Virus record (IMG/VR): IMGVR_UViG_3300044825_000127
Span: 1-24,540 of that record
DNA: 24,540 bases
Origin: a virus
Strand: one strand, 5' to 3'
Positions 1,062 through 18,400 of this stretch are shown one piece after another (position 1 is the stretch's first letter; the number at the start of each line of letters is the position of its first letter). The notes beneath the pieces are model-generated. The model saw only the letters and a list, made by a program, of their open reading frames with translations. It was not told the origin of the DNA and ran no database searches. A program made the position numbers and the translations under genes.

Positions 1062-2259
1062 GGAGTGATTCCTTAAAGGTCATTGGGAAAGGCGTTAAAA
1101 CAGAATCGTAAAGATGTGGATCGCGCAGTGCTTGCAACTTTCGTATCAGTTCTTGCTTAAAGTTCCATGCGCCAAGGATAAAAAGGCACTTTTGCCTGAT
1201 CTCCGATACGGTTTGAAGCGCAACAATTTGCTGCGTGGAGTTCGGAAGGTACTTACCGATCTTCAATGGCGATTCATCCACCACGACATGCGGATCGTCG
1301 TTAATGGCTTGCATCAGCGTGACTGCTTTGGCGGCACAACCAACCATCACCACCACATACCCATCACTTTTGGCTTGCTTGATGACGGATCGCATGGATT
1401 CCACGGCACGGTTTACGCCATTGGCAAATCGTTGGCCGTCCATCCACGTCAGCTGGTGCAACCTTCCCTCGTTCCACTTGCTCGGTGCAAATGGAATCGG
1501 ACTCGGAAACGAGTCGCGCTTACATACTGCTGCAAGCATTGATCCGCCATGCACGTTAACGCGCTGGCGAAAACCTACTCTTAAACCCGCCCTGGTACAC
1601 GCCAAAGTAAACGAGTCAACCGTGAAAAAAGAAACGTGCTCGTGATAAATCGTGTCGAATTCACCATTGGCGAGCATATCCATTTGGCTTACTTGTATGT
1701 ACGCAACGCCATCATCCGTTAAGCAAGCCTCAATGCCTTTGAGAAACGCAATCGGATCGTCGTTATGCGCCAACACGTTCATGGCGATCACAACGTCATA
1801 ACGTTCATTGCCCATGTTCAAAGGCCAATAGGCCGGGATCGTGTAAACGCCTTTTTTGCTTGAAAGTTCAAGCAAATTCTTTGCTGGTTCAATCCCCGTC
1901 ACGGTTGCGCCACGCTTGGCAAGTTTCTGCAGCAACGTTCCATCGTTGCTCGCAATCTCAAGCACGTCAGCGTTCGGGTGATGAAGCGAAACGTTCTCTG
2001 CGAACCATTCAAAGTAATCGTTAAGCGTGTTGCTCGTGCCACTAACGTATAGATAGTGATCGAACAGTTCTTTGGCGTTGTAGCTCACCTTTTGCATAAC
2101 GTGCGTACATTGTGTGCACATCTGCGCAGCAAGCCTTGCGCAGCGCACAAATGTGTTGGGATTGTTCTTTAGCGCGTTGGCGGGTGGTTGCTCGCCAAGA
2201 TCAAAGATCATTTCTGTTTTCCCCTCGCAAAGCAAGCATTGGTTAATTGTTTTGTCCAT
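1054..2259 (-). CDS. SAM-dependent sugar C-methyltransferase (TylC3/NovU type)
   Basis: 401 residues from ATG 2259. This start is preferred to the longer frame (to 2376) because AAGAGAG precedes it and the extension lies inside the epimerase gene. Three parts match the known C-methyltransferase architecture: an N-terminal zinc site (C8xxC11 and C48xxC51), a class I Rossmann domain with motif I at 99-110 (VLEIASNDGTLL), and a C-terminal domain from about residue 300 with a second nucleotide-fold-like strand (VVVMVGCAAKA). The YHEH motif at 205-208, followed by a Phe-Phe-Thr stretch, is the hallmark of NDP-keto-sugar C-methyltransferases such as TylC3, NovU and TcaB9. Length fits the family (about 410). 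Family knowledge implies transfer of a methyl from SAM to a keto-sugar nucleotide carbon. The substrate here is unknown. It overlaps the epimerase by 17 bases. Confidence 0.9.
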   Translation of the reverse strand: MDKTINQCLLCEGKTEMIFDLGEQPPANALKNNPNTFVRCARLAAQMCTQCTHVMQKVSYNAKELFDHYLYVSGTSNTLNDYFEWFAENVSLHHPNADVLEIASNDGTLLQKLAKRGATVTGIEPAKNLLELSSKKGVYTIPAYWPLNMGNERYDVVIAMNVLAHNDDPIAFLKGIEACLTDDGVAYIQVSQMDMLANGEFDTIYHEHVSFFTVDSFTLACTRAGLRVGFRQRVNVHGGSMLAAVCKRDSFPSPIPFAPSKWNEGRLHQLTWMDGQRFANGVNRAVESMRSVIKQAKSDGYVVVMVGCAAKAVTLMQAINDDPHVVVDESPLKIGKYLPNSTQQIVALQTVSEIRQKCLFILGAWNFKQELIRKLQALRDPHLYDSVLTPFPMTFKESLHG

Positions 2260-3037
2260 AAGCTCTCTTGAAGTGTTCGCAGCGTTCTTGTATTGAATAG
2301 AGTTGCGGAATCGTTGGGAGCGCAAACGAATATGTGCCTGTGCTAACACCAAACTCAACCGGGACTTTGTAAACACTTGCCACCTCGTGCGCTAGCTCGC
2401 CAATGCTCATGGTGTAAGACGCCAACGGATAAATGCCTTGCGCGCTGTCATCCTCAATGATTTCCATCACGCGTTCCGCTAAGTCGTCATGGAACAAAAT
2501 ACTTCGCATCGCATCGGGATTAGTAACGTAAACGCGCCCCTCTTCAATCGCTGATCGGTTCATCGCGTTGAAGATCAAATGCCATCGCATCTTTGGCGAC
2601 CATCCGCTTACCGTGCCCATGCGCAAACCAACCACGCGCTTGCCCATGTACTTAGCCACCAAATCGAATGACAACTTGCTGGCGTCATAAGCGTTCTCGC
2701 GCTGTTCGTTAGCCACCAACGAATCACCGTTTGAGAGCAACGATCCTGTGCTGGCGTAAATCAGCCTTGTGTGTGCCGCCATGCGCTCAAGTAGACACAA
2801 TGTGTATACAACGTTCTCCGCTACAGCTCGATGAGGTTGGCGGTTAGCGTCGGCAACATTAGATACGCCAGCAAAGAAAAGGATCTCATCAAACGCACTA
2901 AGTGCAACGTCTGACATGTCTATGAAATCCATGCCCGTTTTTATATCAACAGCCACAAGATTCACGTCATGCGCAATGTTTTTCAGCAATTGGCTGCCAA
3001 CGTAACCCTCAGATCCAATAAGCAAGACGCGCTTCAT
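2243..3037 (-). CDS. Extended SDR NAD-dependent sugar epimerase/dehydratase
   Basis: 264 residues from ATG 3037, which overlaps the preceding stop as ATGA. The N-terminus carries the dinucleotide-binding GxxGxxG loop (G8, G11, G14) after strand MKRVLLIG, with Asp31 at the end of strand 2 as in NAD-binding enzymes. The catalytic set is present: Ser96-Thr97 in IYASTGS and YxxxK at 117-121 (YDASK). A C-terminal substrate domain follows but is short; family members usually reach 300-340 residues. Such enzymes epimerise, dehydrate or reduce nucleotide sugars in the cytoplasm. Its overlap with the C-methyltransferase suggests the two act on one sugar nucleotide. The reaction cannot be chosen from sequence alone. 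Confidence 0.88.
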   Translation of the reverse strand: MKRVLLIGSEGYVGSQLLKNIAHDVNLVAVDIKTGMDFIDMSDVALSAFDEILFFAGVSNVADANRQPHRAVAENVVYTLCLLERMAAHTRLIYASTGSLLSNGDSLVANEQRENAYDASKLSFDLVAKYMGKRVVGLRMGTVSGWSPKMRWHLIFNAMNRSAIEEGRVYVTNPDAMRSILFHDDLAERVMEIIEDDSAQGIYPLASYTMSIGELAHEVASVYKVPVEFGVSTGTYSFALPTIPQLYSIQERCEHFKRAYGQNN

Positions 3038-7144: not shown

Positions 7145-8113
7145 TTAACCCCTTGTGCGGCGATCAAGTTCCTTGACAGCCTCAACCAGCAAACCCGTTA
7201 CCTCTGGATAGTTCACCATCTTCATGCCGTTATCCGCTTTGGCTACCGCGTGCGGCATAACGCGCTCAACGTCTTGCGCCATCACGCCACCCGTTGGCAT
7301 ATCCGAACCCTTGTACTCGTATTCGTAACCACTTAGCTCGCCAAGCGATGCAAGTGGTGACTTCATCTTGGCGATGTTTTCCTTCATGCGCTTATCGGAA
7401 AACAGGTAAGCAAGCGCCGCAACATTGCTTAATCCCTGCCCAAACTGTTGAGCGCCGGAAAGGTTTTGCGTGGTTTGTTGCGTACCACCTGATGGCATTT
7501 GCGTAAGACCTTGTTGAAGGATCTGCAACTGCTGCAACGGGTAATTCTGTTGGCGCAAAAAGTCTTGATACGCCAAATCTAAATTAGCCTGGTTCATGGC
7601 TTGTTGCTGTGCACCAATACCTTGTAACCCTGCTGCGGCTTGTTGGCGTAAACCAATGTCTTGCGCACCGAGCGCGGCGGCCTGCCCAAACCCTTGCTGC
7701 GCAAGTTGTGCCGCGGCCTGCGCGCCTGTTTGCAATGCGGCTTGCTGTTGCAACGCTTCCTGCACTGCTTGGCGAGTTCCGCCATACGCGCCAGCCTTTG
7801 CCGCGGCAGCGCGTGACTGTTGCTGTTGCATCAGTCGTTGCGTTTCAATGTTGCCGAGTGTGTTTTGGATAACTTGCTGGTTGTACGGGTTGTAGAAGTT
7901 AGCCATAGATTCGCCAAGACTTAATGGCGATTCTCTGATAGCGGCCATTGCCTCTTGTTGCGGTTGCGTGAACCCCGCAATCCTTGGCCCGCCATAGGCT
8001 TGATAAGGTTGCTGCGCTACCTGTTGCGCAAACGCATAGTTTTGCAGCGCAGCTTGCTTAAACTCTGGATCGGGTGTGTATGTTGACGAACTTCCGCCGC
8101 CGCCTTTGCTCAT
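7145..8113 (-). CDS. Gln/Ala-rich virion protein with C-terminal S74 chaperone domain
   Basis: 322 residues from ATG 8113. AAGGAG lies 8 bases upstream and the start overlaps the previous stop as ATGA, so the longer frame (to 8185) is rejected. Residues 1-10 are Gly/Ser, then about 20-230 is strongly Gln/Ala-rich helix. The last 80 residues are an intramolecular chaperone of the endosialidase/Peptidase_S74 type: SDKRMKENI at 239-247, the GVMAQDVERVMP strand-loop at 276-287, NYPEV at 301-305 and LLVEAVKEL at 308-316. In known members this domain trimerises the upstream part and then cleaves itself off before its conserved Ser; Ser239 is the likely nucleophile. The chaperone is usually on beta-helical fibres, so its attachment to a helical Gln-rich body is unusual. 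Confidence 0.85.
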   Translation of the reverse strand: MSKGGGGSSSTYTPDPEFKQAALQNYAFAQQVAQQPYQAYGGPRIAGFTQPQQEAMAAIRESPLSLGESMANFYNPYNQQVIQNTLGNIETQRLMQQQQSRAAAAKAGAYGGTRQAVQEALQQQAALQTGAQAAAQLAQQGFGQAAALGAQDIGLRQQAAAGLQGIGAQQQAMNQANLDLAYQDFLRQQNYPLQQLQILQQGLTQMPSGGTQQTTQNLSGAQQFGQGLSNVAALAYLFSDKRMKENIAKMKSPLASLGELSGYEYEYKGSDMPTGGVMAQDVERVMPHAVAKADNGMKMVNYPEVTGLLVEAVKELDRRTRG

Positions 8114-8490
8114 GGTGATAACTCCTTGGACATGACAGTCCACTTTTCTTGATAACCTTCGTCCGCCAGAAATGATTTGATCCATCCGCGCCGGCCCGCT
8201 AGCGTGACGCGATTACATCCTATGGATAGCGCCCACTTCTCGATAACGGGGCGCATTGCGGCGAGTTCTTCGATGTTTCCGCCAGCAAGGAAGTAATGAC
8301 ATGCCTTGCTTCGCGGATAAACTTGAATCTCTGTGATGACAGCGGATTGCGAACCGGGCCAAAACTGCATTTGCTTGTTTGTCACGGCCTTTGCAATATC
8401 TTCAATGGTATGCGTTTGTCCGGCGTGAAGCAATGCCGCCTCAAGGTAAGGCTTGCATCGCTCCCAGTGCTGAAGGTCAAACTTTGTCAT
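8110..8490 (-). CDS. GNAT-like protein of unknown substrate
   Basis: 126 residues, start ATG 8490 in an ATGA overlap with the DUF4214-repeat gene, and ending in ATGA with the S74 gene. The order of elements resembles a GCN5-related acetyltransferase: N-terminal helices, beta strands (VITEIQVYP), a loop with Gly-Gly (FLAGG), a long helix (AAMRPVIEKWALSIGC), then a strand NRVTLAGRRGWIKSFLADEGYQ that parallels the GNAT ending in which an aromatic residue follows a Gly. The classical Q/RxxGxG/A acetyl-CoA loop is not clear, so it may be a non-catalytic relative. Small proteins like this are common between virion genes; acetylation of a virion protein is speculation. Confidence 0.55.
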   Translation of the reverse strand: MTKFDLQHWERCKPYLEAALLHAGQTHTIEDIAKAVTNKQMQFWPGSQSAVITEIQVYPRSKACHYFLAGGNIEELAAMRPVIEKWALSIGCNRVTLAGRRGWIKSFLADEGYQEKWTVMSKELSP

Positions 8491-9656
8491 TGAATGGAAA
8501 GCAATCCATTGTTTGCGGCTTGTGGCGTGAAACTGGATAAAAGACCTTGCAGCGGTGCTCCACTACCAAGTTGCCCAAGATAGTAGTTATATGGCTGCAA
8601 AGTCATATTCTGCGCGGCCTGGTTGTAGCTTGAAAATAGTTGCGCTTCGGGTGATGCGCTAATTGATTGGCGAATATCTGACAGCGGGACGCCTTTGTTG
8701 TACTCGCCAAGCCAGTAACCATAATCGGCTTGCGTTGGCATCCTTCCAAGCGACATGCGATAAGTGCGGTTTAGCAACGCTTCGGGTGATGTGCCAATAG
8801 ATTCCTGAATAGCGCCAGCATCAATACCTTTGGCGAGTTCACCGCCCCAGTAACTCAGATCGGCTTGCGTTGGTGCGCGTCCAAGCAGTGATTGATACCA
8901 ACCCGTTACTTGCTGATCGTAAGGATTGACAACGGGTTGCGTCGGAACATTCAAAAGGCTATCCGTTACCGACCCTCCGGGCAGTAAAGTGGAGCGATCA
9001 TCAATGAAATTATCCTTGCCCATTTCGAGCAAACCCGTGTTGCCGCCAGCACCTGGCGTTACCGCTCCAGGTGGATTTGGATTCGGCGTTAAGGTTGCAA
9101 GATCCGGTGGAATTGGTTTTTTATCAACGGGCGGTAAGTTTGAATCGCTTGGCTTTGGTTCGGCTGGCTCAACGGCTGGCCGCCACTTCTCACCGGATGG
9201 CAATGTGTAGGGCGTCACTTTGCCCGTATTGGTGAACAGTAAACCTTCAGGCCCAAAACCGTAACGCGTGTAATCACCAGCATATGGCGTATAAGTCCGT
9301 TCCGCCAAACCTGTCTGGGTAATGCCTTGCGTTGTGCGTTTAGCGCCCGGTTGACGCGCCGCGTTAATATCAATCTCTGATTGCGCTGAACGTAAAAACT
9401 CGGTGCGCAGTTTTTCTGGGCTTGCTAACTCGTTTTGCGCCCAATCCCAGTATGCGGTTTCATTGGGTTGCGGTGCGCGTCCCAAGACTGACGTGTAAAG
9501 CTCAGGTATTGCGTCACGCAAAAACGCACTACGCAACTGTGCTGGCGTCCACTTTTCGTTGTTGGCGGACATAAGCCACCAATTAACCTCATCGTCACGC
9601 GGCGCTCTGTTGAGTGCTTGCTGGTACAAAGCCTGTATGTCTTGTTTCGTTGCCAT
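8487..9656 (-). CDS. Virion protein with DUF4214-like repeats
   Basis: 389 residues from ATG 9656, with AGAGG upstream. Four repeat units of about 42 residues match the DUF4214 pattern (Tyr, LGR-P, YW, then a hydrophobic helix): residues 7-48, 52-95, 252-293 and 297-340, with a degraded fifth at 342-376. The best cores are LYTSVLGRAPQPNETAYW and WYQSLLGRAPTQADLSYW. A Pro-rich linker (about 150-205) separates the two pairs. DUF4214 is known from secreted and surface proteins, often near glycan or S-layer functions; its action is not settled. Here it lies among virion genes and could be a tail-tip or host-surface-binding protein. It ends in an ATGA overlap with the GNAT-like gene. Confidence 0.8.
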   Translation of the reverse strand: MATKQDIQALYQQALNRAPRDDEVNWWLMSANNEKWTPAQLRSAFLRDAIPELYTSVLGRAPQPNETAYWDWAQNELASPEKLRTEFLRSAQSEIDINAARQPGAKRTTQGITQTGLAERTYTPYAGDYTRYGFGPEGLLFTNTGKVTPYTLPSGEKWRPAVEPAEPKPSDSNLPPVDKKPIPPDLATLTPNPNPPGAVTPGAGGNTGLLEMGKDNFIDDRSTLLPGGSVTDSLLNVPTQPVVNPYDQQVTGWYQSLLGRAPTQADLSYWGGELAKGIDAGAIQESIGTSPEALLNRTYRMSLGRMPTQADYGYWLGEYNKGVPLSDIRQSISASPEAQLFSSYNQAAQNMTLQPYNYYLGQLGSGAPLQGLLSSFTPQAANNGLLSIQ

Positions 9657-12785: not shown

Positions 12786-14801
12786 CTATTGCAGCGGGAA
12801 TGGTGCAGTTGGTGGCGTGAAGTTGGCTGTGTAACGGGCAAGACCTCTCGTGATGCGAATATCATCAAGATAACCATTCCAAGGGTATTGGTTGTCCGGT
12901 CTAACGCCAACACGCAATGTTGTGTTTGAAAAGTTATCTGATGATGTATAAGTTGATCCTGTCTGTGTGCCATTTACAAACAATCTAAGACTTGTTCCAG
13001 ATCTTGTCACCGCAATATGTTGCCAACTTGCTGCCGCCGCAACAGTGCCTAATATTTCTTGAGCAGAAATTGATACATACCACGCACCTGTTGTAATGTT
13101 TGCGGCTATTGCCAACCCACCAGCAAATGAACCGTTTCGTGTATCAATTGCTGTTGCGTAAGTTGAAAAAGCACCACCATTCCAGTAAGCCCAAAACTCA
13201 ATCGTAAAGTCTCCAGTGCCAAACGGAAGCAAGACATTAGACGGTGCTGTTAAATAATTGCCCGAACTGACGCTAATACTCCCACCACCCCACTTGCTCT
13301 GTGCAGTGCTGATCTGTGCATTGCCCTCTGTCTCCAGCACGTTCTTCGCAGTGGCATCGACGACACCAGCGTTGGTGAAGTTGAGGAGGAGGGAGGTGTT
13401 GGTGATGTTGGTTAATGGTGCTGTGGGGACAGTGATGGTTGATGAGGCTGGGTTATAGACAGCAGTGCCTTTGACAACACGAAGGCTGGATATGTATCCG
13501 CCAAACTCCTGATCGGCATAATCTGAAATTGCTCCAATGTTAGCTGCGCCTTGTGCATAGTTGATGGAATTGCTTTGAGATTGAGTCCCTGATACAGCTC
13601 CGTTAACCCAACAGGTAATCGATGTTCCGCTTCTAGCAACTGCAACGTGATTCCATGAATTGCTTGTAGGCGTAGACCCAAACGTATTATTTACATCAAC
13701 ACCTCGTCTTCCTATCCCAATCAATCCACTTCCAGACAAAAAGATATTTGCACCGTTTGTTGCATTGGCAACAAACAAAACACGTTCACCTCGACCTCCA
13801 GTAATGTACACCCACGCCTCAACCGTAAAGTCTCCAGTACCAAACCCAAAAGCTGCGTTGCTTGCAGCACTCAAATAATCCCCACTCCCATCAAAGTACC
13901 CGCTACCACCCACTGCGGCAGCACTGTAGGAGGACGTTGGTGCGAAGGGGGAGAAGGGGGTGACTGATGTGTTGCCGTTAGATGTAACAGTGAATCCATT
14001 GCTACTTGCGTCACGGAATCGGTTGGATTGGCAAGTTAGTAAGGATGTTCCAGATATTGCTGTTAGCGGTGACGTCGGAGGAGTAAAAGCTCCTGTGTAT
14101 ACGGCAGTGCCTTTGACAACACGAAAATTTGAGATGTAGCCGGTATAAGTTGATGACCCATTCCTTGCGCCAATTTGGAATGTACCAGTTGCATTCATTA
14201 ATGTGGCGCTTGATGTAGTTGTGCTTGTAACAGACCCATTCAAGAAGCACCGTATAGAAGTCCCGCTCCTAGATACAGCGACATGATTCCATGAATTTAC
14301 TGTAGGCGTGCCACCAGAAACACCATTTGCAACATCAAAAGAAGAGTTATTTGAGGACGAATAAAATTCTAACGCTCCAGCATTAAAATATAAATTACAC
14401 GGGCCATAATTTCCCCCGCTTGTATGGGCTGTTAACAAAACACCGTTGTTTGTAATTGTTGGGTATATCCAGCACTCAAGAGTGAAATCTCCTGATCCAT
14501 AATCAAATGCCGCATCATCAGGCACCGTTAAATAATCACCCGTCCCATCAAAGTAAGCACCCCACCCCGTCTGTGAGAACGGGCTAAAGGTTCCCTGCGT
14601 TACATCGCCATTAGGCGTAATAGACCAGCCTGTGCCGCTATTAGCTGTGGATGAGTCAACGAAATCGTTGTTCTTCTTGCCGTTGGTGCCGTTGCCTGGC
14701 AACAAAAGTGACACTAAATTAAAGTATTGATCTTTAATCAGGCCGGACGTGAACCCATAAACGTTGGCAATTGCCGCGCCAAGTGTTGAAAGAACAGGCA
14801 T
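12786..14801 (-). CDS. Triple-LamG tail fibre or receptor-binding protein
   Basis: 671 residues from ATG 14801 with a strong AAGGAG 9 bases upstream. After a 30-residue head the protein consists of three homologous modules, each a linker plus a concanavalin A-like LamG jelly roll. The LamG parts are at about 79-241, 298-455 and 504-665. Each shows YFDGxGDYL or its relative, GDFTxExW (104-111, 323-330, 530-537), a Trp-x-His-x-Ala-Val-x-Arg-Ser-Gly-Thr-Ser turn, and a closing segment like RVVKGTAVY. Module openings SLLLPG, SLLTCQ and SLLLNF lie at 31, 253 and 470. LamG domains in phage proteins bind glycans or other surface ligands, so this is the likely adhesin. The short head presumably attaches it to the virion. 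Confidence 0.85.
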   Translation of the reverse strand: MPVLSTLGAAIANVYGFTSGLIKDQYFNLVSLLLPGNGTNGKKNNDFVDSSTANSGTGWSITPNGDVTQGTFSPFSQTGWGAYFDGTGDYLTVPDDAAFDYGSGDFTLECWIYPTITNNGVLLTAHTSGGNYGPCNLYFNAGALEFYSSSNNSSFDVANGVSGGTPTVNSWNHVAVSRSGTSIRCFLNGSVTSTTTSSATLMNATGTFQIGARNGSSTYTGYISNFRVVKGTAVYTGAFTPPTSPLTAISGTSLLTCQSNRFRDASSNGFTVTSNGNTSVTPFSPFAPTSSYSAAAVGGSGYFDGSGDYLSAASNAAFGFGTGDFTVEAWVYITGGRGERVLFVANATNGANIFLSGSGLIGIGRRGVDVNNTFGSTPTSNSWNHVAVARSGTSITCWVNGAVSGTQSQSNSINYAQGAANIGAISDYADQEFGGYISSLRVVKGTAVYNPASSTITVPTAPLTNITNTSLLLNFTNAGVVDATAKNVLETEGNAQISTAQSKWGGGSISVSSGNYLTAPSNVLLPFGTGDFTIEFWAYWNGGAFSTYATAIDTRNGSFAGGLAIAANITTGAWYVSISAQEILGTVAAAASWQHIAVTRSGTSLRLFVNGTQTGSTYTSSDNFSNTTLRVGVRPDNQYPWNGYLDDIRITRGLARYTANFTPPTAPFPLQ
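13462..13483. repeat. 22-bp exact repeat, copy 1, within the LamG gene
   Basis: An identical 22-base stretch beginning GCAGTGCCTTTGACAAC occurs here and at 14104-14125. It encodes the RVVKGTAV end of LamG modules 2 and 1. The flanking sequence is diverged, so the identity may reflect recent exchange between modules or selection on this turn. Confidence 0.8.
14104..14125. repeat. 22-bp exact repeat, copy 2, within the LamG gene
   Basis: Second copy of the 22-base repeat that also lies at 13462-13483; it encodes the end of LamG module 1. Copies are 642 bases apart, close to one whole module, so recombination between them would remove or add a LamG unit in frame. Confidence 0.8.
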
Positions 14802-15552: not shown

Positions 15553-16677
15553 TTACGCGGCATCTCGCCACGGTGAATTGATGGGTGTCCATATGTTGGA
15601 CGGATCTGTGATGTTTGTCCAAGTGGTGGTTACAGGTGCAACGGGTTCCCATTTCAAACCGCCATCGGCTGACATGGATGAAATTTCTGAACCAGCAGCC
15701 CTTGCATACCAAGTAACAGTTGCCAATGCCGTAACGCTTGATTCGGCATTAGCTTGTGCTTGCGGACTTGCATCAACGTTTGCATCAGCCGTTGCACTTG
15801 ATATGGCATTGGCAATAGCTTGTGAACCTGCATCAATTTCAGCGTTTGCCGTAACCGTTGATTCAGACACGGCAAGCGCAATGCCGCCGCGAACCGCAAT
15901 CCCTGTTGCAGACTGTTCACTGGTGCTGGCGGCCTGCGCGGTGCCATCTCTGACAAATTCTCCTGATGCGCTTGCCGTGGTTGTGCTGGTTGCGGTTGCG
16001 GTTCCTGATTGAAGGAATGCACCACTTGCCGTTGCGTTTGTTTCGGATACTGCACTAGCGGTTGCGCTAAACCGTATACCGCCAAGCGCAGTTTGTGTTG
16101 AATCGCTTGCAGCGGCAGCTGTTCCCGAGAACAGAATGCCGCCTGTTGCAGTTGCTTCGCTTGTGCTTGTGGCAAATGCCGATTGACCAGAAACAACTTC
16201 AGCACTTGCGCTAACCGTTGATGTTGATGCGGCAGTTGCCGTGCCATCGGCAACCATTTGCCCGGTTGCTGTTGCACTGGTATCGCTTGATGCTGGCGCA
16301 TCACTTTGGCGTATAGCCGTTCCGCTAGCCGTTTGCGTTGATTCGCTTGCTGCTGCGGCTGCGCCATCTTGAATGATGGTGCCAGTTGCCGTAACCGTTG
16401 AAACTGAATTTGCTTCAGCGGTTGCGCTAATAACGCCAGCACCCGCCGAATATGGCCCTGAACCATAGGCATAGAATCCATAGTTAGCCAATCCGCCTGA
16501 CGTTTTCTCGCCATCTGCGGTTGCGCTAGATACGGCAGTGCTAACGGCCTCGGCTTCAATGGCATCTGGAGCGGAATACTTCCCCAGGCCATAGGCACCA
16601 ACGCCGTAATTATCGACAGGCGCATCGGTTCCCCATTTGCCACTGCCGTAAGCACCATTGCCATAGTTAAGGGCCAT
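15553..16677 (-). CDS. Repeat-rich structural or fibre protein (twelve 20-residue repeats)
   Basis: 374 residues from ATG 16677; the ribosome site is weak. Three parts are visible. Residues 1-80 carry three copies of an NYGxGAYGxGKYS-like motif (4-16, 23-35, 65-77). Residues 86-325 are twelve consecutive repeats of exactly 20 residues with consensus TAxAxSxSxxTATGxIVxDG, almost all Ala/Ser/Thr/Gly with no Lys and very few charged residues. Residues 326-374 form a Trp-rich end (TTTWTNITDPSNIWTPINSP). A regular 20-residue period with alternating small residues fits a stacked beta-solenoid or beta-roll shaft. No family is recognised. Position among fibre genes supports an extended virion appendage. 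Shadow frames across the gene on both strands are a side effect of the repeats. Confidence 0.8.
   Translation of the reverse strand: MALNYGNGAYGSGKWGTDAPVDNYGVGAYGLGKYSAPDAIEAEAVSTAVSSATADGEKTSGGLANYGFYAYGSGPYSAGAGVISATAEANSVSTVTATGTIIQDGAAAAASESTQTASGTAIRQSDAPASSDTSATATGQMVADGTATAASTSTVSASAEVVSGQSAFATSTSEATATGGILFSGTAAAASDSTQTALGGIRFSATASAVSETNATASGAFLQSGTATATSTTTASASGEFVRDGTAQAASTSEQSATGIAVRGGIALAVSESTVTANAEIDAGSQAIANAISSATADANVDASPQAQANAESSVTALATVTWYARAAGSEISSMSADGGLKWEPVAPVTTTWTNITDPSNIWTPINSPWRDAA
15703..16422 (-). repeat. Tandem coding repeat, 12 units of 60 bp
   Basis: Twelve in-frame units of 60 bp encode residues 86-325 of the 374-aa protein. All units keep the exact length with no insertion. 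The protein pattern is conserved (small residue at 2 and 4, Ser near 6, Ala at 12, Gly at 14, hydrophobics at 16-17, Gly at 20), while bases differ from unit to unit. The array is therefore old or under selection, not a fresh duplication. Units 10-12 diverge most. A degraded extra unit lies upstream in the protein at about residues 43-62. Confidence 0.9.
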
Positions 16678-16681
16678 TCAC

Positions 16682-17077
16682 TTACGCCAAAGTGACTGAC
16701 AGATTCCCAGTTGCAAAACGGAATACATCACCACTTCCAACTGCTTTGCTTGCCGTTAGATCGGCCCATGACAGCATATTGCCTGATGTGCTTGCGTCGA
16801 AAATGGCAGCCGCCACAACCGTACCCCATGAACCGGATGCCGTTGGAAATTCAACGTTAGCCGAATTGGATGCTGTTGTTGGCGATGTACCTGTCACACT
16901 GAACGTTGCCGCGGTGCGTGCGTAGCTGTTGCCCGATACTTCCGTACCGCCGCCAGCATCCGTAGGTGCAACGGTAAATAGTCCAACGTAAAGCGAAGAT
17001 GGCGACGTGTAAGACGTGTTGGTAAACACATGCTTCATCACTTTATCTTCAAGATAATCTGAAAATGAACCTGCCAT
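16682..17077 (-). CDS. Small phage structural protein
   Basis: 131 residues from ATG 17077 with a strong AAGGAGC upstream. The N-terminus (GSFSDYLEDKVMKHVFTNTSY) followed by SSLYVGLFTVAPTDAGGGTEV is a well-known phage pattern: a helix with SxYLExxxxxHxF, then a strand with VGLFT and a Gly-rich loop. The rest is beta-rich (VEFPTASGSWGTVVAAAIFD, then GDVFRFATGNLSVTL). Homologous proteins are usually annotated as tail or structural proteins of unknown detail. It lies between the adaptor and the repeat protein, consistent with a tail or fibre-base component. Confidence 0.75.
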   Translation of the reverse strand: MAGSFSDYLEDKVMKHVFTNTSYTSPSSLYVGLFTVAPTDAGGGTEVSGNSYARTAATFSVTGTSPTTASNSANVEFPTASGSWGTVVAAAIFDASTSGNMLSWADLTASKAVGSGDVFRFATGNLSVTLA

Positions 17078-17078
17078 G

Positions 17079-17699
17079 TTAGTAGCTCCTTGCTCTCATG
17101 CGCGGCGTGGTGCCGCTAAAGTTTGACCTTTGCTCTTCAAGCATTAGATCGTTAAAGGCTTCCTTATATAAGGTGCCCCAGGTAGTGATGCGGTCATCAT
17201 CGCGCAAGTAAGGTGCGCTCTGAACCAATGCGCCATATAGGTACATGGCTGGCGATTTCGTAAGCAACCAGTTGCTTGTGTTGCTATCTGAAAGCGCCGG
17301 AATCTTTTTGTAGTACGACATCTCAACCGTGTATTCGCCACCAGGCGTTGGGATCACTTCAAACGTTTGACCGACAATCGAGTAATACTTTGGTTCGTTG
17401 GCGGCTGCAAAGTAAGTGGATCGCAAATCGTCGGCTTGCTCGTTGCTCACAAATGACAGCTTCATAGGCGTTGCTGTGTTCAACTGAATGTTGATCATTT
17501 GCAGGAAATCGGCTGGCAATTCCGTGTACTGCGTATCAAGTGATGCGGTTGCGCGCTGCACCATATCGCGTGTGCGGATCGTGCGGTTAAACGTTGCTTC
17601 CGCCAAAACAATAAACGATGGAATGACGGACGTTAAGTCATCGCGGTTGATCCAATCCGCAATGCTTGATTTGAGTCCGCTGAATGTGTCGAGTGCCAT
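17079..17699 (-). CDS. Head-tail adaptor protein
   Basis: 206 residues from ATG 17699, which overlaps the glycosyltransferase stop as TGATG and has AAGGTGG upstream; the TTG one codon earlier is not needed. The N-terminal helix (TFSGLKSSIADWINRDDLT) and SFIVLAEATFNRTIRTRDM (about 27-46) are the typical opening of short-tailed phage adaptors (T7 gp11 / SU10 adaptor-like). Downstream lies ELPADFLQMINIQ, then a beta region with EVIPTPGGEYTVEMSYYKKIP and a final helix (TWGTLYKEAFNDLMLEEQ). It would form a ring below the portal and connect to the tail. Family length is usually about 190-220. Confidence 0.82.
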   Translation of the reverse strand: MALDTFSGLKSSIADWINRDDLTSVIPSFIVLAEATFNRTIRTRDMVQRATASLDTQYTELPADFLQMINIQLNTATPMKLSFVSNEQADDLRSTYFAAANEPKYYSIVGQTFEVIPTPGGEYTVEMSYYKKIPALSDSNTSNWLLTKSPAMYLYGALVQSAPYLRDDDRITTWGTLYKEAFNDLMLEEQRSNFSGTTPRMRARSY

Positions 17700-18400
17700 C
17701 AAGCCACCTTTTGAGTTTCGACCGGAGCGCCAGCTGCTTTTCTGCGCTCATCTTCCATCGGTCGGAGTGCCCAAGTATGCTCGTGCTTATACTCGAAGGT
17801 TCCTATATGTCCAATTTGCTTGGACAGGTCATGATCAATATACAACGGAATGCCGTTATCCCGCAACAACTTGCAGAAATACACATCCTCGCCCATGTAA
17901 CCCTTGGCCTGTACATCCCATGGCGTTGCAAACCATGGCATATCAATCACTTTGAAAACGTTGATGTCCACCAGCATCACGCCAGTGCCAACCATGTCAA
18001 CTTGCTCCAAACCTGTATCTTCGGGCATCGAGTAACGTAATACTTTTCTTCCTGTTGCTTTATCGTAGTTGCCAGCCGTGGGGCCGGTTGGCATTCTGCG
18101 CCTGGCGCAGTTTGCCGCCACAACGCATTCGCCATGGGCCAGTAGGCGCGCAATAGTGTCAGCCGGAAAGCGCATGTCGCTATCAAGGAATAGCAGATAG
18201 TCTGCATTCGCGTGTATGGCGTTCATGACTAATTCGGTGCGCTGCGAGCAAAGCAATGTGCCTTGACTCATCAGCAAATTCACAATGTCACCCGTGTTGC
18301 CAATGTGGTGGCTAACAGCATTCACCAAGTCAAAGGTAAACATCGTATGCACTTCATCGCGTGCCGGCACGCAAACAGAAATAATCCGTTTATCAGTCAT
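17699..18400 (-). CDS. GT-A glycosyltransferase encoded in the head module
   Basis: 233 residues from ATG 18400, overlapping the preceding stop as TAATG, with GGGAGGG 4-5 bases upstream. The fold signs are clear: first strand RIISVCVPARDEVH, helix 2 (SQRTELVMNAIHANADYLLF), and a DSD metal-binding motif at 73-75 (FLDSDMRFP). A mid segment VDMVGTGVMLVDINVF and a GEDVYFCKLLRDNGIP motif (170-185) hold the usual acceptor-side acid, and His198 may complete metal binding (GHIG). It would transfer a sugar from a nucleotide donor in the cytoplasm. Lying between capsid and adaptor genes, it could glycosylate a virion protein; the acceptor is unknown. Confidence 0.8.
   Translation of the reverse strand: MTDKRIISVCVPARDEVHTMFTFDLVNAVSHHIGNTGDIVNLLMSQGTLLCSQRTELVMNAIHANADYLLFLDSDMRFPADTIARLLAHGECVVAANCARRRMPTGPTAGNYDKATGRKVLRYSMPEDTGLEQVDMVGTGVMLVDINVFKVIDMPWFATPWDVQAKGYMGEDVYFCKLLRDNGIPLYIDHDLSKQIGHIGTFEYKHEHTWALRPMEDERRKAAGAPVETQKVA

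Follow-up and report, generated by a model that had tools for sequence, protein, structure and literature searches.

A 20-residue repeat protein encoded next to gp80 as the probable rope of a bead-chain fibre in an SU10-like phage

What is the role of a phage protein whose central part consists of twelve contiguous units of 20 residues? The protein comes from an IMG/VR virus record of 24.5 kb whose portal, capsid, and adaptor genes are of SU10 type; this whole stretch of 24,540 nucleotides is referred to as the window. The gene for the repeat protein, which we also call the rope, lies at 15553..16677 on the minus strand and encodes 374 aa, as judged from the ORF call and the relatives. The earlier note on this DNA had reported these coordinates, the frame, and the twelve in-frame units correctly, and it had suggested a beta-solenoid or beta-roll shaft, with a trimer as the form to model. 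The gene directly follows gp80, and a 20-residue period recurs by gp80 in unrelated sequences; the gene context thus points elsewhere than to a solenoid shaft. We read the repeat protein as the probable rope of a fibre in an SU10-like phage, located at the neck or tail vertex, along which Gp80 dimers would be strung like beads on a chain.

The array covers residues 86-325 (15703..16422, minus strand) and was delimited by lag identity and a leave-one-out profile. It comprises 12 x 20 residues with zero indels, and every unit has Ala at its positions 2, 4, and 12. The protein identity at lag 20 was 0.42 in the array, whereas 2000 shuffled sequences reached 0.245 at most, and each array unit scored 5-28 bits with the leave-one-out profile against a null mean of -22 and a 99.9% point of 3.2. 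The pairwise identity between units was 39% on average (range, 15-60%). The repeats, which had been called exact, are therefore exact in unit length but not in sequence. The twelve-unit extent held, but the pattern was found to be wider: an additional isolated unit is present between two Tyr-Gly blocks at residues 43-62 (EAVSTAVSSATADGEKTSGG; 16492..16551, minus strand; 8.3 bits vs the null 99.9% point of 3.2), and a weak further unit is present at residues 326-345 (15643..15702, minus strand; -1.8 bits, above the 99% but below the 99.9% point of the null). The N-terminal segment (16423..16677, minus strand) carries Tyr-Gly motifs (NYGxGxYGxGKWG) and is modelled with a pLDDT of 24-43; the relatives start similarly. 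The C-terminal tail, residues 339-374 (TTTWTNITDPSNIWTPINSPW; 15556..15663, minus strand), is rich in Trp and is possibly an anchor or cap. Since Tandem Repeats Finder did not report the array as a tandem repeat in the window DNA, and since the DNA identity at lag 60 across the array was 0.48, the array is old, with its period kept at the protein level. Ser and Thr make up 79 of the 240 array residues. The low charge described before is better stated as mildly acidic (19 D+E vs 4 K+R).

As the earlier note had stated, the repeat belongs to no recognised named family: the window protein was assigned to none in Pfam, PHROGs, or NCBIfam (with E<=0.01 as the limit for PHROGs), and nothing matched it in a PDB sequence search or in a tblastn search against public phages. 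Relatives were found at 38 IMG/VR loci. The complete ones are 374, 384, 376, 331, 297, or 165 aa long; the absence of length variation thus applies within the protein, but not among its relatives.

The gene starts 4 nt downstream of a gp80 homologue (131 aa; 16682..17077, minus strand), the proposed bead, which was assigned by PF23140 (Podophage GP4 fiber I protein; E 9.6e-44) and PHROG 240. The homologue matches PDB 8jou_a, 10 chains, with an E of 3.3e-10 (profile E 7e-36), and the Gp80 part of a predicted model matched the same entry, titled 'Fiber I and fiber-tail-adaptor of phage GP4', with a TM of 0.74 in a structure search. As had been suggested, the repeat protein lies in the fibre/neck region. 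Beyond gp80 lie, as context, an SU10-type adaptor protein of the neck cluster (17079..17702, minus strand; PF24175, E 3.9e-36) and a glycosyltransferase-like protein (17699..18400, minus strand; PF03452, E 7e-7; phrog_34859). Several further minus-strand products of the window were recorded. A 671-aa protein at 12786-14801 has three LamG/concanavalin-A-like stretches and is likely a fibre or adhesin, a protein at 8487-9656 contains DUF4214, and the C-terminal domain of the product of 7145-8185 is a Peptidase S74 (intramolecular chaperone). The C-methyltransferase-like and NAD-dependent epimerase/dehydratase-like proteins at 1054-2376 and 2243-3037 suggest sugar-nucleotide modification.

The association of gp80 with a period of 20 residues was followed across viruses. 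Of the close relatives of the window protein, 28 had sufficient upstream DNA to be examined, and all 28 had gp80 directly upstream. A significant 20-residue period was found in the next gene in 137 of 191 distinct Gp80 and next-gene pairs, which were collected with gp80 sequences of a few related lineages as queries and are not independent, because 157 of them fall in one gp80 cluster at 60% identity. The smaller gp80 clusters showing the period include those of Bcep22-type phages, Zobellviridae, and Ochrobactrum phages. Among the next genes of these pairs that had any significant period, it was 20 or 40 in 136/141. The next gene had no significant period in the other 54 pairs, and in 7 of those 54 a rope was found elsewhere in the locus. 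A rope near gp80 with a non-periodic adjoining gene was seen in MiniMac, L109, MW202496, MW202481, Venkman, and Octadecabacter DB virus 2. As a control, 383 other ORFs of the same loci were analysed; twelve had period 20 at z>5, and inspection showed each of these to be a rope copy, a rope read in another frame, or a rope at another place in the locus. Conversely, all 9 public phage records matched by two rope queries were also in the gp80 list. In Mycobacterium phage MiniMac, gp22 (locus L137, 2274-3470), annotated as a minor tail protein, has the 20-residue period and lies just upstream of the gp80 homologue. In three loci (L094, L098, and L123), the 20-residue repeats of the next gene are preceded by a fused N-terminal domain, at least about 200 aa long, and the 57-kb contig IMGVR_UViG_3300049844_000006 carries two gp80 loci (L282 and L284) approximately 34 kb apart.

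The spacing is conserved to a greater extent than the sequence. In 48 non-redundant proteins, which have 6 to 31 units each, the unit spacing was exactly 20 in 485 of 503 cases. One related clade changes its copy number by whole units, with arrays of 7 vs 10 units and a tail made of a 10-residue Trp (W) repeat. The Trp-rich C-terminal tail, present in the window protein, is common but not universal among ropes. When 46 ropes were aligned by phase, the consensus was G-x-A-x-[IVL]-[ST]-A-[ST]-[AG]-T-[VLM]-[ST]-A-x-[GA]-x-[R/hydrophobic]-[VI]-x-x, in which alternate positions are small, two of these positions are hydrophobic, and a short R-V turn is present. As far as a sequence pattern can indicate, such alternation would agree with each unit forming a single long, extended strand.

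Evidence on the presence of the repeat proteins in virions goes both ways. Virion association is annotated for BcepIL02 gp56 and BcepMigl gp57, and phrog_19041 is annotated as 'virion structural protein'. In JC1 virions, Gp80 (gp53) is among the proteins detected, but the repeat counterpart gp54 is absent from the list (PMC9144972); likewise, phiM5_17 is marked as detected and phiM5_18 is not so marked.

The repeat array, its neighbour gp80, the recurrence of their link across viruses, and the constancy of the period were all observed, and on this basis we propose how such a fibre would be built. Gp80, encoded just upstream of the rope, would make dimeric beads, and the rope would bind them physically, passing through or along successive beads in an extended conformation. 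Each 20-residue unit may be one extended docking strand of small residues for a bead, so that the strict 20-residue spacing would set a fixed bead pitch and the unit number would set the bead count per fibre. The Tyr-Gly N-terminus and the Trp-rich C-terminus may serve as end caps or anchors. A more tentative extension, which we regard as plausible but somewhat short of an even chance, is that the rope acts as a molecular ruler: one unit would dock one Gp80 dimer, the unit number would fix the bead number and the fibre length, and phages would tune this length by the gain or loss of whole units while the sequence drifts freely. That the spacing stays fixed where the sequence does not suggests that fibre length may follow from a simple count of units. 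The rope reading would also assign a likely function to a large number of uncatalogued phage virion proteins, whose present annotations are hypothetical, 'serine-rich adhesin', or 'ribonuclease E'.

The array could also fold by itself as a thin beta-solenoid shaft, perhaps filamentous-haemagglutinin-like, with two short strands per 20-residue turn and a core of Ala, Ser, Gly, and Thr. AlphaFold2 does draw about two strands per 20 residues, both for the window protein and for the homologue of locus L089, and the repeat strands of the latter reached a pLDDT of 71-88. However, the window protein modelled with 29 relatives had a mean pLDDT of 49, the array lay at 50-67 over most blocks, and the best match of the model in a PDB fold search had an E of only 3.7, with none significant; the shaft proposed before was thus not supported. 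The L089 model was a gp80 and repeat fusion, a modelling device in which the gp80 stop was read as Gly, in frame across a 3 nt gap; we do not suppose that the phage itself reads through. In its alignment, no rows consisting of repeats alone covered the gp80 part. The Gp80 of this fusion was confident, but with a pTM of 0.43 the model gave no confident docking. Moreover, AlphaFold2 has been documented to build confident, unrealistic beta-solenoids from repeats (PMC11795689), and the models therefore neither establish nor exclude a solenoid. The Pfam family Fil_haemagg (PF05594) gave a weak match in 6/47 relatives (best E 6.8e-6), whereas the window protein had no Pfam match to it above the cut-off and matched no other repeat family. 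At a rise of about 4.8 A per turn, 13 units would form a stub estimated at approximately 60 A, and a solenoid leaves the gp80 link unexplained. We consider a solenoid unlikely.

It is improbable, in our judgement, that the repeat protein is a separate fibre or adhesin protein which merely adjoins gp80 in a structural operon and makes no direct contact with it. Fibre genes do come next in the window, including the LamG protein, some relatives bear the extra N-terminal domain described above, and the contact between rope and Gp80 is one that we infer. Nevertheless, unrelated sequences repeatedly show the period of 20 beside gp80, and do so in varied gene orders, with the rope upstream of gp80 in MiniMac and several genes off in others. 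A Ser/Thr-rich scaffold that mainly carries glycans from phage-encoded enzymes would agree with the Ser/Thr content of the array and with the glycosyltransferase-like ORF, sugar epimerase, and C-methyltransferase encoded in the window. However, phages MW202879 and MW202462 have similar repeat proteins and no glycosyltransferase annotated at that place, and several rope clades are Ala-rich with fewer Ser/Thr; we regard this explanation as very improbable. A rope for Gp80 beads is the reading that we retain.

Threaded or beaded neck fibres have been described in other phages. The whiskers of Sf14 consist of gp30 and of gp31 dimers, with the gp30 chain threading through both (PMC11821841), and the neck chains of Bas63 and Sf14 matched the Gp80 fold in a structure search. 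The Felixounavirus protein that was equated with Sf14 gp31 by gene order and size belongs to PHROG 240, as does Gp80. Unlike the rope of the window, the 166-aa upstream protein of Felixounavirus (phrog_3977) had no 20-residue array on reading, and its phage is a myophage. Anabaena phage A-1(L) has five bead-chain neck fibres on a 15-fold neck ring (PMC10966104); there the bead is gp81, and the model has trimers of gp81, gp82, and gp80 at 14:1:1. That this last protein shares its number with GP4 gp80 is a coincidence of numbering. No threaded fibre is described in the neck papers on Milano and 7-7-1. A likeness to the filamentous haemagglutinin repeat concerns the six relatives with weak PF05594 matches and not the window protein.

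Further close systems are found among the Bcep22-type and GP4-type phages. PHROG 19041, from Bcep22-type phages, resembles the window protein in being encoded directly after gp80 and in its 20-residue period, but differs in its repeat residues and ends, and the two had no profile match at E<=0.01. In BcepMigl and BcepIL02, close GP4-type relatives, the repeats are looser and number about 7-8, and the tail is PAPRxR, whereas the window protein has Tyr-Gly and Trp ends. When the GP4 rope sequence was sought among PDB sequences with Bcep22-type repeat proteins, only chance matches were obtained; GP4 gp80 searched in bacterial genomes gave one short, unrelated-looking match and no close genome relative, and a literature search for a 'rope protein' of phage tail fibres found no paper. 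In GP4 fibre I, an elongated rope protein reportedly carries five dimers of gp80. From its position and from the related phages, this GP4 rope would be a member of the present repeat family. The window resembles GP4, a Ralstonia podophage (fibre I, PDB 8jou), in having a gp80 homologue directly upstream and in the setting, the fibre region of a short-tailed phage; the rope reading would link these repeat proteins to one solved fibre.
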